DNA of 64,000 nt from contig LT629302.1 of NCBI GenBank assembly GCA_900104375.1, positions 3,578,480 to 3,642,479 on the forward strand, written 5' to 3'. The notes below the pieces were generated by a model. It did no database searches, was not told the DNA's origin, and saw only the letters and a list, made by a program, of their open reading frames with translations. Below, piece by piece: positions 36,912 to 55,681 of this stretch. The DNA is from Flavobacteriaceae bacterium MAR_2010_188 (GTDB lineage: Bacteria > Bacteroidota > Bacteroidia > Flavobacteriales > Flavobacteriaceae). Both the position numbers and the translations under genes were made by a program. The number at the start of each line of letters is the position of its first letter. The first letter of the stretch is position 1.

Positions 36912-36931
36912 CCTGCCTGCCGGCAGGCAGG
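36912..36931. repeat. Solitary 20-bp REP-like palindrome
   Basis: CCTGCCTGCCGGCAGGCAGG is a perfect 20-bp palindrome in an AT-rich spacer. The same 20 bases end each of the three GIY-YIG units near tRNA-Arg (54859, 55220, 55581), but here no nuclease gene is attached. Confidence 0.85.
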
Positions 36932-53892: not shown

Positions 53893-53917
53893 GTCAGGCT
53901 GAGCGGAGTCGAAGGCT
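53893..53917. repeat. Single short GC-rich intergenic repeat (GCTGAGCGGAGTCGAAGGC type)
   Basis: GTCAGGCTGAGCGGAGTCGA and the following GGCT stand out from the AT-rich spacer. I recognise this as a common intergenic repeat of flavobacterial genomes; only one copy occurs in this window. Confidence 0.5.
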
Positions 53918-53992: not shown

Positions 53993-54442
53993 ATGAGTTT
54001 GCAAACTAAGGTTATGGATGCCATGAAAACGGCGATGAAGGAGAAAAATCAAATGGCGCTTTCGTCGTTGAGAGCTATTAAATCTGAAATTCTTTTAGCA
54101 CAGACTGCGTCTGGCGAGAAGCAGGATTTATCGGAAGATGATGAGATTAAATTGCTTTCTAAATTGGTTAAGCAGCGTAAGGACAGTGCGGCAATTTATT
54201 TAGAACAAGATAGAAAGGATCTTGCTGAACCAGAACTAGAACAAGCTGAGATTATAAGTCAATTTCTCCCGGCCCAATTGTCGGAAGACGAAATTGAAAA
54301 AGTTGTTGTGGAAAGCATTGCAGCCACCGGAGCAGATGGAATGAAAGATATGGGCAAAGTAATGGGTATCGTAAGTCAAAAACTTGCGGGACAAGCTGAC
54401 GGTAAAACTATCTCCAGTATCGTAAAGAAAAAATTAGCGTAA
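53993..54442 (+). CDS. GatB/YqeY-domain protein
   Basis: A 149-residue YqeY-like protein (MSLQTKVMDAMKTAMKEKNQMALSSLRAIKSEILLAQ ... KLVKQRKDSAAIYLEQ-type ... QFLPAQLSEDEIEKVV ... GKVMGIVSQKLAGQADGKTISSIVKK). It resembles the tRNA-binding tail domain of the GatB amidotransferase subunit; its role is uncertain but linked to tRNA-dependent amidation by homology. The start at 53993 is taken because MSLQTKV is the family start; the extra upstream frame is hydrophobic and unconserved. It follows ftsZ in many flavobacteria. tRNA-Arg lies 43 bases downstream. Confidence 0.93.
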   Translation: MSLQTKVMDAMKTAMKEKNQMALSSLRAIKSEILLAQTASGEKQDLSEDDEIKLLSKLVKQRKDSAAIYLEQDRKDLAEPELEQAEIISQFLPAQLSEDEIEKVVVESIAATGADGMKDMGKVMGIVSQKLAGQADGKTISSIVKKKLA

Positions 54443-54485: not shown

Positions 54486-54559
54486 GGCCTCGTGGCGCAA
54501 CTGAATAGCGCATCAGATTTCGGCTCTGAGGGTTGGGGGTTTGAATCCCTCCGGGGTCA
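54486..54559 (+). tRNA. tRNA-Arg (UCG)
   Basis: A 74-base cloverleaf: acceptor GGCCTCG/CGGGGTC with discriminator A, D stem GCGC/GCGC, anticodon stem TCAGA/TCTGA around loop TTTCGGC giving anticodon TCG, and T stem GGGGG/CCCTC with loop TTTGAAT. CCA is not encoded. Everything from the first base of the anticodon loop (54518) onward is also the first part of a 361-bp tandem repeat, so the functional 3' half is supplied by the repeat element. Confidence 0.95.
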
Positions 54560-54606
54560 CAAAGGAAATGGTTCTGCTTCACGCAGGACCATTTATCGTT
54601 TTATAT

Positions 54607-54849
54607 ATGTACTATGCTTACGTCATTAAAAGCCTTAAGGATGGAAGGTTTTACAAAGGAATTACCAACAGTCTCGACAGGCGAATTGAGCAGCATAACC
54701 TTGGCGAAAACAAATCTACCAAAGGTTTCATTCCTTGGAAATTATATTATTACGAAATATTTGATACAAGGATTGAAGCGAGGTCACGTGAGAGGTTCTT
54801 CAAATCTGGATATGGAAGAGAATTTCTAACTAAAATCAAAGAAGAATAG
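54607..54849 (+). CDS. GIY-YIG nuclease, unit 1
   Basis: An 80-residue single-domain GIY-YIG endonuclease. MYYAYVIKSLKDGRFYKGIT holds the two-strand GIY (Y5) and YIG (Y16-K17-G18) motifs; DRRIEQHN supplies the conserved Arg26 and His30/Asn31, and EARSRERFFKSGYGREFL carries the catalytic Glu (E62) and the Lys-Ser-Gly segment. ATG at 54607 is the natural start; a longer reading from 54541 would begin inside the tRNA. Stand-alone GIY-YIG proteins of this size are related to Slx1/YhbQ. No DNA-binding domain is attached. The context suggests a role in cutting tRNA genes or mobilising the unit, which is inference. Confidence 0.88.
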   Translation: MYYAYVIKSLKDGRFYKGITNSLDRRIEQHNLGENKSTKGFIPWKLYYYEIFDTRIEARSRERFFKSGYGREFLTKIKEE

Positions 54850-54858
54850 CTAATCAGA

Positions 54859-54878
54859 CCTGCCTGCCGGCAGGCAGG
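54859..54878. repeat. 20-bp palindrome closing unit 1
   Basis: CCTGCCTGCCGGCAGGCAGG, nine bases after the nuclease stop and immediately before the next tRNA 3' part. Identical to 36912-36931. Confidence 0.9.
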
Positions 54879-54921
54879 TTTCGGCTCTGAGGGTTGGGGG
54901 TTTGAATCCCTCCGGGGTCAC
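54879..54921 (+). pseudogene. Orphan tRNA-Arg 3' half, copy 2
   Basis: 43 bases identical to the tRNA-Arg from the first anticodon-loop base through the discriminator plus one base. No 5' half precedes it; the 20-bp palindrome does. Confidence 0.9.
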
Positions 54922-54967
54922 AAAGGAAATGGTTCTGCTTCACGCAGGACCATTTATCGTTTTATAT

Positions 54968-55210
54968 ATGTACTATGCTTACGTCATAAAAAGCCTTAAA
55001 GATGGAAGGCTTTACAAAGGAATTACCGACAATCTCGACAGGCGAATTGAGCGGCATAACCTTGGCGAAAACAAATCTACCAAAGGTTTCATTCCTTGGA
55101 AATTATATTATTACGAAATATTTGATACAAGGATTGAAGCGAGGTCACGTGAGAGGTTCTTCAAATCTGGATATGGAAGAGAATTTCTAACTAAAATCAA
55201 AGAAGAATAG
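54968..55210 (+). CDS. GIY-YIG nuclease, unit 2
   Basis: Same 80-residue GIY-YIG domain as unit 1, with four amino-acid changes (F15L, N21D, S22N, Q29R) and all active-site residues kept (Y5, Y16, R26, H30, E62). The reading frame is intact. Base changes include both silent and replacement substitutions, so the copies have begun to diverge without loss of coding potential. It starts 46 bases after an orphan tRNA-Arg 3' part and ends nine bases before the 20-bp palindrome, exactly as in the other units. Confidence 0.87.
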   Translation: MYYAYVIKSLKDGRLYKGITDNLDRRIERHNLGENKSTKGFIPWKLYYYEIFDTRIEARSRERFFKSGYGREFLTKIKEE

Positions 55211-55219
55211 CTAATCAGA

Positions 55220-55239
55220 CCTGCCTGCCGGCAGGCAGG
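55220..55239. repeat. 20-bp palindrome closing unit 2
   Basis: Same perfect palindrome and same position relative to the nuclease stop as in unit 1. Confidence 0.9.
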
Positions 55240-55282
55240 TTTCGGCTCTGAGGGTTGGGGGTTTGAATCCCGTCGCGGTCAC
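55240..55282 (+). pseudogene. Orphan tRNA 3' half, copy 3, with altered T-arm and acceptor
   Basis: Matches the other copies up to TTTGAATCCC, then reads GTCGCGGTCAC instead of TCCGGGGTCAC. These three changes break pairing with the resident tRNA-Arg 5' acceptor and T stem, yet would pair with an acceptor of GACCGCG type. This copy may therefore derive from a different tRNA gene. Confidence 0.8.
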
Positions 55283-55328
55283 AAAGGAAATGGTTCTGCT
55301 TCACGCAGGACCATTTATCGTTTTATAT

Positions 55329-55571
55329 ATGTACTATGCTTACGTCATAAAAAGCCTTAAAGATGGAAGGCTTTACAAAGGAATTACCGACAATCTCGAC
55401 AGGCGAATTGAGCAGCATAACCTTGGCGAAAACAAATCTACCAAAGGTTTCATTCCTTGGAAATTATATTATTACGAAATATTTGATACAAGGATTGAAG
55501 CGAGGTCACGTGAGAGGTTTTTCAAATCTGGATATGGAAGAGAATTTCTAACTAAAATCAAAGAAGAATAG
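55329..55571 (+). CDS. GIY-YIG nuclease, unit 3
   Basis: Third 80-residue GIY-YIG nuclease. It shares L15, D21 and N22 with unit 2 and Q29 with unit 1, plus one silent change in the RFF codons. The active-site pattern (Y5, Y16, G18, R26, H30, E62) is complete. Units 2 and 3 are each other's closest relatives, so the newest copying event probably involved them. The gene is followed by the palindrome, the final tRNA 3' part and the strong terminator at 55652. Confidence 0.87.
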   Translation: MYYAYVIKSLKDGRLYKGITDNLDRRIEQHNLGENKSTKGFIPWKLYYYEIFDTRIEARSRERFFKSGYGREFLTKIKEE

Positions 55572-55580
55572 CTAATCAGA

Positions 55581-55600
55581 CCTGCCTGCCGGCAGGCAGG
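55581..55600. repeat. 20-bp palindrome closing unit 3
   Basis: Same perfect palindrome, directly before the last tRNA-Arg 3' part. Confidence 0.9.
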
Positions 55601-55643
55601 TTTCGGCTCTGAGGGTTGGGGGTTTGAATCCCTCCGGGGTCAC
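55601..55643 (+). pseudogene. Terminal orphan tRNA-Arg 3' half (probable original 3' end)
   Basis: Identical to the tRNA-Arg 3' part but followed by TACAAGC rather than AAAGGAAATGG, so the element-specific hairpin is absent here. A canonical terminator follows eight bases later. This is most simply the original 3' end of the tRNA gene before insertion. Confidence 0.85.
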
Positions 55644-55651
55644 TACAAGCG

Positions 55652-55681
55652 AAAAGTCTGCACGAGAGTGCAGACTTTTTT
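55652..55681 (+). terminator. Terminator after the tRNA-Arg/GIY-YIG array
   Basis: AAAAGTCTGCAC pairs with GTGCAGACTTTT around a GAGA loop, followed by further T. Probably the ancestral tRNA-Arg terminator. Confidence 0.93.

Follow-up and report, generated by a model that had tools for sequence, protein, structure and literature searches.

A tandem array at a bacterial tRNA-Arg gene suggests a minimal selfish element made of a GIY-YIG nuclease gene and a partial tRNA copy

Introduction

In fungal mitochondria, mobile open reading frames (ORFs) bring a replacement gene end with them, as in Glomus atp6, atp9, cox2 and nad3 and in Allomyces atp6; according to the accessible part of the report, an endonuclease ORF (GIY-YIG in atp9) lies in a conserved gene, a duplicate end restores the reading and the native end persists as a remnant (PMC3630166). 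Tremella introns carry duplicated 5′ ends, a part of the target travelling with the mobile segment (PMC7315562, accessible part), and phages T4 and T6 encode SegB, a free-standing GIY-YIG homing endonuclease in a tRNA cluster, with cut sites within tRNA genes, tandem amplification and no intron (PMC2988022 and PMC13096335, accessible parts). Here we analyse an array at positions 54486-55643 of a 64,000-nucleotide stretch of the Flavobacteriaceae bacterium MAR_2010_188 genome (contig LT629302.1; hereafter the window), in which three tandem 361-bp units, each with a small GIY-YIG nuclease gene, lie downstream of one intact tRNA-Arg(tcg) gene. We consider it likely that these are three copies of a minimal selfish element that combines a nuclease gene with a partial duplicate of the tRNA gene it targets and that would move by a homing-type process, rebuild the tRNA gene it interrupts and stack.

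With the fungal ORFs the elements described here share an endonuclease-type ORF, a duplicated end of the target gene and a native remnant that persists. The fungal ORFs occupy protein-coding genes in mitochondria, and the authors judge the gene ends to be foreign (PMC3630166, accessible part), whereas here the targets are bacterial tRNA genes, the nuclease has 80 residues, 5′ or 3′ parts are duplicated, hairpins are inserted, units stack in tandem and the hosts span several phyla. The duplicated 5′ part in Tremella resembles the layout that we call type B below, but the Tremella segments are introns and none was found in the array. SegB lies between phage tRNA genes, and the accessible parts of the two reports describe no carried tRNA fragment (PMC2988022, PMC13096335). 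None of these three systems is a bacterial-chromosome tRNA gene with a hairpin-broken copy. We found no description of this element among the titles and abstract openings listed in searches of the open-access literature, and the 14-base core of its palindrome occurred in no paper of the open-access literature searched. Integrative elements that target tRNA genes use the gene as an attachment site, with its 3′ part duplicated and the tRNA restored; the array, in contrast, has no integrase ORF and a unit of ~0.36 kb, and most of its relatives duplicate the 5′ part. REP/REPIN palindromes are short and dispersed and occur with a small nuclease-like gene, the RAYT transposase (Y1, HUH), whereas the array gene is GIY-YIG, not Y1 (HUH), and its palindrome sits inside a broken tRNA copy.

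Results

Three units follow one intact tRNA-Arg gene

The sole complete tRNA at the array, tRNA-Arg(tcg) at 54486-54560 on the + strand (ARAGORN; Rfam RF00005, 55.9 bits), would be the rebuilt target. Behind it, at 54566-54594 (+), a hairpin and then a T-rich stretch, probably the tRNA terminator, recur in every unit (−17.2 kcal/mol, z −3.95 for the first unit folded). The unit continues with an 80-codon open GIY-YIG gene, after which come a 20-bp palindrome and tRNA positions 33-75. The ORFs, all on the + strand, occupy 54607-54849 (unit 1, 80 codons plus stop, assigned through the Pfam PF01541 match of the near-identical unit 3 protein), 54968-55210 (unit 2, from the ORF list) and 55329-55571 (unit 3, from the ORF list and Pfam). 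The strandless palindrome, CCTGCCTGCCGGCAGGCAGG, found by repeat search and placed by alignment, stands at 54859-54878, 55220-55239 and 55581-55600, and each copy is followed on the + strand by a piece of positions 33-75 starting at the anticodon loop's first base (54879-54921, 55240-55282 and 55601-55643). The middle piece differs from the other two at three sites, the remainder of its unit being nearly unchanged. Counting the part of the intact tRNA, which is the first, the array holds four tRNA 3′ pieces; the last closes it before a terminator-like hairpin at 55652-55679 (+; inverted repeat I8). Unit spacing is 361/361, and units 2 and 3 are 98% and 97% identical to unit 1 over 300 nt.

Re-aligning the tRNA to the end of the last unit revealed a longer copy, covering positions ~18-75, which the palindrome interrupts between 32 and 33, the anticodon stem/loop boundary. 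The same bases are read in unit 1, where 54844-54858 (+) corresponds to positions ~18-32 (13 of 15 bases by eye); because the broken copy starts at about position 18, the stop codon of the GIY-YIG ORF falls within tRNA-like bases. The sequence thus identifies each unit as a predicted nuclease gene plus a hairpin-containing broken tRNA copy, with a single intact tRNA at the array's left end.

We saw no integrase or transposase ORF in the array, only GIY-YIG ORFs and short overlapping frames (by eye; small frames were not searched), nor any ORF of transposase size, and by eye no terminal repeats in the tRNA class. Rfam gave no intron at the tRNA, which is complete: the hits were tRNA only, plus one sRNA match far below cut-off.

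An earlier note on this DNA, made from the letters alone, had described three near-identical 361-bp units, each with a hairpin, a palindrome and an intact 80-codon GIY-YIG gene, a fourth tRNA 3′ piece closing the array before a terminator, and no integrase, transposase or intron; the repeat, folding, Pfam and Rfam analyses, the ORFs by eye and the neighbouring genes (YqeY and peptidase M90) agree with it on each of these points. Its placing of the tRNA part's start at the anticodon loop is right for piece 33-75 but not for the remnant, which starts at about position 18, and the insertion at the anticodon loop that it had proposed was not borne out, the remnant in loci of this layout reaching upstream of the palindrome to about position 11-29. 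The note had also stressed that active-site residues persist despite divergence between copies: the residues are indeed kept in all three, but the copies have hardly diverged.

The nuclease is a bare GIY-YIG domain under constraint

The unit 3 protein matches Pfam PF01541 at 1.2e-15, with the domain spanning residues 1-71 of 80; SegB is a longer protein. Eight residues are invariant in 32 aligned relatives (Y5, Y16, G18, R26, T38, P43, E62 and K66), and on reading all eight are kept in units 1-3. Since ORF pairs within the array differ at just 2-6 nucleotides, conservation there proves little by itself, and the evidence for selection comes from other genomes. Between genomes, the ratio of nonsynonymous to synonymous substitution rates (dN/dS) of the nuclease ORF had a median of 0.13 and a maximum of 0.23 over 36 non-independent pairs (protein identity >72%, dS 0.1-2, some from the sister class described below); judged from these sequences, the nuclease is under purifying selection.

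Related units adjoin tRNA genes throughout the family

A protein search of the window's own genome found seven further GIY-YIG places. They include two tandem pairs, one at tRNA-His, accompanied by hairpins and short 3′ ends of the tRNA, and one upstream of tRNA-Pro, where the 5′ tRNA pieces are degenerate, as well as a single copy at tRNA-Leu. At two loci without a tRNA gene, GIY-YIG genes lie among other dispersed repeats (L009, 1420-1638; L010, 1492-1707).

Across the family, 132 of 397 genomes had a nuclease match at E ≤ 1e-8. We read 130 loci chosen by nuclease similarity alone: 6 from the own genome (the window array included), 44 fetched by search and 80 from among the matches listed. 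Dropping one without a domain hit (L170) and two duplicates (L122 and L173) left 127. The fetched DNA contained a tRNA gene at 108 of these, on the nuclease strand in all 108, at a distance of ≤100 bp at 97 loci and ≤200 bp at 106; by rough arithmetic (~45 genes in 3.5 Mb), a random place would fall so near a tRNA gene in ~1% of cases. More than one domain match on one strand occurred at 27/127 loci, with a maximum of eight, a few of these being a single frame broken by a stop; the loci read never held more than one complete tRNA. At two loci, one with eight units (L150, G186) and one with a single unit (L176, G148), the tRNA part starts with the anticodon loop, and we saw no 5′ half preceding it; we take this part to resemble the 3′ half of an initiator-type tRNA.

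A tRNA fragment scored above all 60 shuffles at 94 of 107 testable loci. In 83 of the 94 the fragment contains an insert of 12-60 bp, and 75 of these have an insert whose fold beats 47 or more of its 50 shuffles; the commonest insert points lie behind tRNA positions 22/23 and 8/9. Assigning layouts by the position of the intact tRNA, we found the window layout (type A: intact tRNA, nuclease, then the broken 3′ part where found) at 15/108 loci, among which five tRNA-Asn and one tRNA-Val locus lacked a significant tRNA fragment. The mirror layout (type B: broken 5′ part, nuclease, intact tRNA downstream) was found at 92/108, the 5′ part typically running from positions 1-22 through a hairpin to 23 to ~28-38; one further locus has units on both sides of the tRNA. 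The replacement tRNA 3′ half of the earlier note therefore describes the window layout, but not most relatives, in which the 5′ part is duplicated. As read from these sequences, the adjoining tRNA is complete and on the nuclease strand, and in most cases the far side of the nuclease gene carries a truncated copy of the tRNA, which a hairpin often interrupts.

The palindrome recurs outside the array

The own genome has 14 copies of the 20-bp palindrome: three within the array, one at window positions 36912-36931 and ten in other places (L011-L020). One of the latter (L019) apparently lies inside another dispersed repeat. The sequence found behind position 20-22 of tRNA-Asn in Parcubacteria and Roizmanbacteria records is identical to the palindrome of the Bacteroidota tRNA-Arg fragments, CCTGCCTGCCGGCAGGCAGG. 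Twenty palindrome stretches were chosen from among the places listed in the palindrome scan. Palindromes in tandem at 108-112 bp spacing occur at L300 and L303 (G202) and at L017/L018 of the own genome. Those of L300 and L303 stand beside sequence resembling tRNA 3′ ends, and the short stretch that we read there contained no nuclease. These tandem palindromes are possibly non-autonomous derivatives.

Empty and occupied sites, stacking and decay

The YqeY gene upstream of the array (53993-54442, +; Pfam YqeY, 9.6e-44) marks the locus in relatives. It was matched in 29 genomes, 17 of which had tRNA-Arg(tcg) in the fetched DNA; a tblastn search with four queries (1e-3) found 16 of these 17 loci empty, that of a genome from the window's own genus (G001) among them, and the window's alone occupied. 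In another genus (g32), 2 of 12 genomes are occupied at one locus (G032 with one unit and G415 with three, type B), and the nuclease was not found in the other ten; by eye, the flanks of the occupied loci resemble those of the empty relatives.

At tRNA-Ala in genus g14, two of nine genomes have a full-length nuclease frame (G406 and G418), and two have shortened frames that count as decayed copies, of 63 residues without an ATG (G256) and of 39 residues (G014). The other five gave no nuclease match, and by eye tail-like sequence lies beside the tRNA. In both full-length cases (L331 and L332) the frame, which ends in LGM, extends into the tRNA-Ala gene, where tRNA bases 8-10 serve as its stop codon; the nuclease and the tRNA-Ala therefore overlap. 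Sequence comparison thus shows an element present at its cognate tRNA gene in some genomes and absent from relatives, with copies that are tandem and decaying.

Nuclease lineages follow tRNA type across phyla

A wider set comprised the best 80 loci of a scan, with hosts as named in the records, mostly metagenome-assembled genomes. A tRNA lay within 200 bp at 66 of the 80, on the nuclease strand in 66/66 (56 type B, 10 type A), and its fragment scored above all 60 shuffles in 60 of the 66; nine of the 14 loci without a near tRNA are within 400 bp of a contig end. The earlier note had suggested searching for the nuclease and palindrome beside other tRNA genes, and the exact 20-bp palindrome stands beside the nuclease at 25 of the 66 (a 20- or 19-bp form occurs anywhere in 35/80). 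The hosts are Bacteroidota of several orders, candidate-phyla-radiation bacteria (Paceibacter, Kuenen-, Adler-, Roizman-, Giovannoni-, Gracilibacteria and others) and Omnitrophota; near-tRNA loci of the latter two groups have a significant fragment in 11 of 13 cases. Misbinned contigs may account for some of these hosts, though several contigs are long (L220, 179 kb; L248, 296 kb).

In a first tree of 124 rows (rows <55 residues left out), tRNA type required 20 changes over the 104 rows with a tRNA, against a lowest value of 59 in 300 label shuffles. In a cross-phylum tree of 92 rows, made of the 66 named near-tRNA loci and 26 of the 124 first-tree rows chosen to cover the tRNA types, tRNA type required 31 changes (lowest of 200 shuffles, 58), and phylum was unclustered, at 13 changes against a shuffled mean of 13.5. 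The Leu elements from Paceibacter, Kuenenbacteria and Gracilibacteria are placed together with those from Bacteroidota (support 94/98). The two trees were built on 75-77 columns, many of their forks are open and the bootstrap had not settled; as far as they resolve, nuclease lineages track tRNA type more than phylum.

A sister class interrupts protein-coding genes

A sister GIY-YIG clade has no tRNA and lies in NAD-epimerase genes (L077, L078, L080, L154, L155 and L166; Pfam PF01370 for L078 and L154), at a GGAGF|IG motif. A 5′ gene fragment ending in GGAGF is followed by a 285-bp core around the nuclease and by an epimerase gene that starts afresh, the 5′ part of the gene being duplicated. 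The core has inverted ends, ACCCRTGAAAT and ATTTCAYAGGT (the right end of L154 was not found by pattern), which were seen in this class only and not in the tRNA class. At L081 and L142 (286 bp) the element interrupts another gene, whose reading continues beyond it; no restoration was seen. With the L078 nuclease as query (E ≤ 1e-18), 12 of 397 genomes matched, one match (G157) being a tRNA-Ala element.

Discussion

The array and its relatives fit the earlier note's idea of a nuclease-only unit of under 400 bp that sits at a tRNA gene, supplies a replacement tRNA part and stacks. In the mechanism that we favour, the nuclease would cut or nick an unoccupied tRNA gene of its own type, and element-bearing DNA would template repair of the break, inserting the nuclease gene with its spare tRNA part. 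The tRNA would then read through intact, the old part staying as a remnant. Units could stack by further insertion or by unequal crossing-over between tRNA repeats, since a rebuilt tRNA that keeps its sequence leaves the target undestroyed. The least certain step concerns the palindrome, which probably silences the remnant or prevents it from serving as a target or recombination partner.

Several observations weigh against this homing-type account. Both occupied g32 genomes have the same intact tRNA sequence as 7 of the 10 empty ones, which suggests that, unlike in classical homing, the target survives insertion, and which leaves immunity unexplained. No signal of a foreign half-tRNA was found, as acceptor stems did not differ between 26 tRNA-Arg genes with the element and 16 without it; perhaps the tRNA is too conserved to reveal a foreign gene end. 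No separate DNA-binding region was found, and no Pfam family besides GIY-YIG matches the 80-residue protein; with the domain covering residues 1-71, sequence specificity is hard to explain. This and the rebuilt tRNA's empty-site sequence appear to be misfits with classical homing, and the recognition site may include flanks of the tRNA. Of the 127 loci, 19 have no tRNA in the fetched DNA; eight belong to the sister class, and the others are contig ends, have tRNA pieces only or show no visible tRNA link (L009, L010 and a few more). In the cross-phylum tree, the Adlerbacteria Leu element (L232) is placed among Bacteroidota Arg elements, and the Asn elements from candidate phyla stay apart from those of Bacteroidota. 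Neither 72,556 plasmid records (E ≤ 1e-8) nor 50,697 phage records (E ≤ 1e-6) contained a match to the window nuclease, which leaves the element without a known vector; two IMG/VR contigs carry a relative, one adjoining tRNA-Arg without a significant fragment (L258) and one without a tRNA (L259). Cleavage and movement by the nuclease are inferred from the sequences.

In sequence, the nearest relatives of solved structure are UPF0213 and SLX1 proteins, so the enzyme may recognise structure. This is the starting point of the best-surviving alternative, which we nonetheless think unlikely: the nuclease, as a relative of the structure-specific SLX1 type, would recognise hairpins (tRNA arms or the palindrome) in single-stranded or cruciform DNA and move units by nicking and recombination, in a transposition-like way, instead of homing to one set sequence through a double-strand break. 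Of 109 inserts, 88 coincide with tRNA helix boundaries, whereas position alone would predict 31%; shared ancestry, which makes the loci non-independent, inflates this contrast. Copies of the palindrome are dispersed in genomes and co-occur with the nuclease, which is present in 27 of the 36 genomes that have the palindrome and in 35 of the 163 that do not (Fisher, 2e-9, taking the 199 palindrome-scanned genomes as all among the 397), an association that is partly circular because the arrays themselves contain the palindrome. Among 33 dispersed palindromes, six adjoin a perfect hairpin (3.8% per site in the control), but these six make up just three tandem pairs, and the other 27 have no such hairpin beside them. 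The 285-286 bp core of the sister class with its inverted ends would also suit transposition-like movement, whereas the tRNA class shows no terminal repeats by eye, and its close tracking of tRNA type fits specificity for a sequence or locus better.

Ordinary local duplication in tandem, without mobility, of a tRNA region with a small nuclease gene in it by chance would draw on the near identity of the window units, whose long direct repeats permit unequal crossing-over, and it may still account for copy number inside an array. As the whole explanation it is highly improbable: the same anatomy occurs at many tRNA types, in many genera and in several phyla, and the same loci have empty sites. 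The earlier note had tied this explanation to relatives with one unit count, no empty sites and no copies elsewhere; instead, most YqeY-tRNA-Arg sites are empty, the g32 locus has 0, 1 or 3 units, and copies stand at many tRNA genes.

Equally little credence goes to a toxin-antitoxin-like system at the RNA level, in which the nuclease would act on its cognate tRNA with the broken copy as a decoy or guide. The match between nuclease lineage and tRNA type and the structured inserts in the broken copy would suit such a system, but the sister lineage has the same layout in protein-coding epimerase genes, the solved relatives include structure-specific endonucleases, and shortened ORFs stand beside intact tRNA genes. 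Least credible of all is a host-recruited device that amplifies or maintains tRNA dosage, in the manner of the tandem amplification of a tRNA-Tyr locus by SegB, also GIY-YIG (PMC13096335, accessible part), given at most one complete tRNA per locus read, stacking that adds broken pieces only, 265 of 397 genomes without a near relative (E ≤ 1e-8) and the decay of some copies.

Three candidates were rejected: local duplication alone (empty sites and the many other loci), a group I intron (none in Rfam, with the tRNA complete) and an integrase-borne element (array ORFs that are only GIY-YIG and short frames).

Returning to the homing-type element, the occurrence of similar units beside many tRNA genes in distant groups points to a little-noticed kind of minimal mobile element. 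We place it among nuclease-driven elements equipped with a spare end of their target, and there is a fair chance that it merits a separate class. More tentatively, and with less conviction than for the element itself, such a class could be defined by a bare GIY-YIG nuclease, a fragment of the target gene and a conserved hairpin at tRNA helix boundaries, at ~0.3-0.36 kb possibly among the smallest elements encoding their own enzyme. It would be common to Bacteroidota, candidate-phyla-radiation bacteria and Omnitrophota, cross phyla tRNA type by tRNA type, rebuild the gene it breaks while keeping its own target, and have a sister class in the nucleotide-binding motif of NAD-epimerase; its nuclease may recognise DNA hairpins over sequence.

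If this is true, a single small nuclease domain and a spare piece of target suffice for a mobile element, and such elements exist in bacterial chromosomes, beyond fungal mitochondria and phages. This would offer a possible answer to how selfish DNA survives in essential tRNA genes, the gene being left intact and the target reusable, and would explain small GIY-YIG genes of unassigned role beside tRNA genes together with the adjacent tRNA fragments. The elements would also form a natural set of tRNA-type-linked nucleases for study.

Other features of the window

Upstream of the array, between an FtsZ-like ORF and YqeY, positions 53899-53914 read CTGAGCGGAGTCGAAG, which has one copy in the window and resembles a dispersed repeat.

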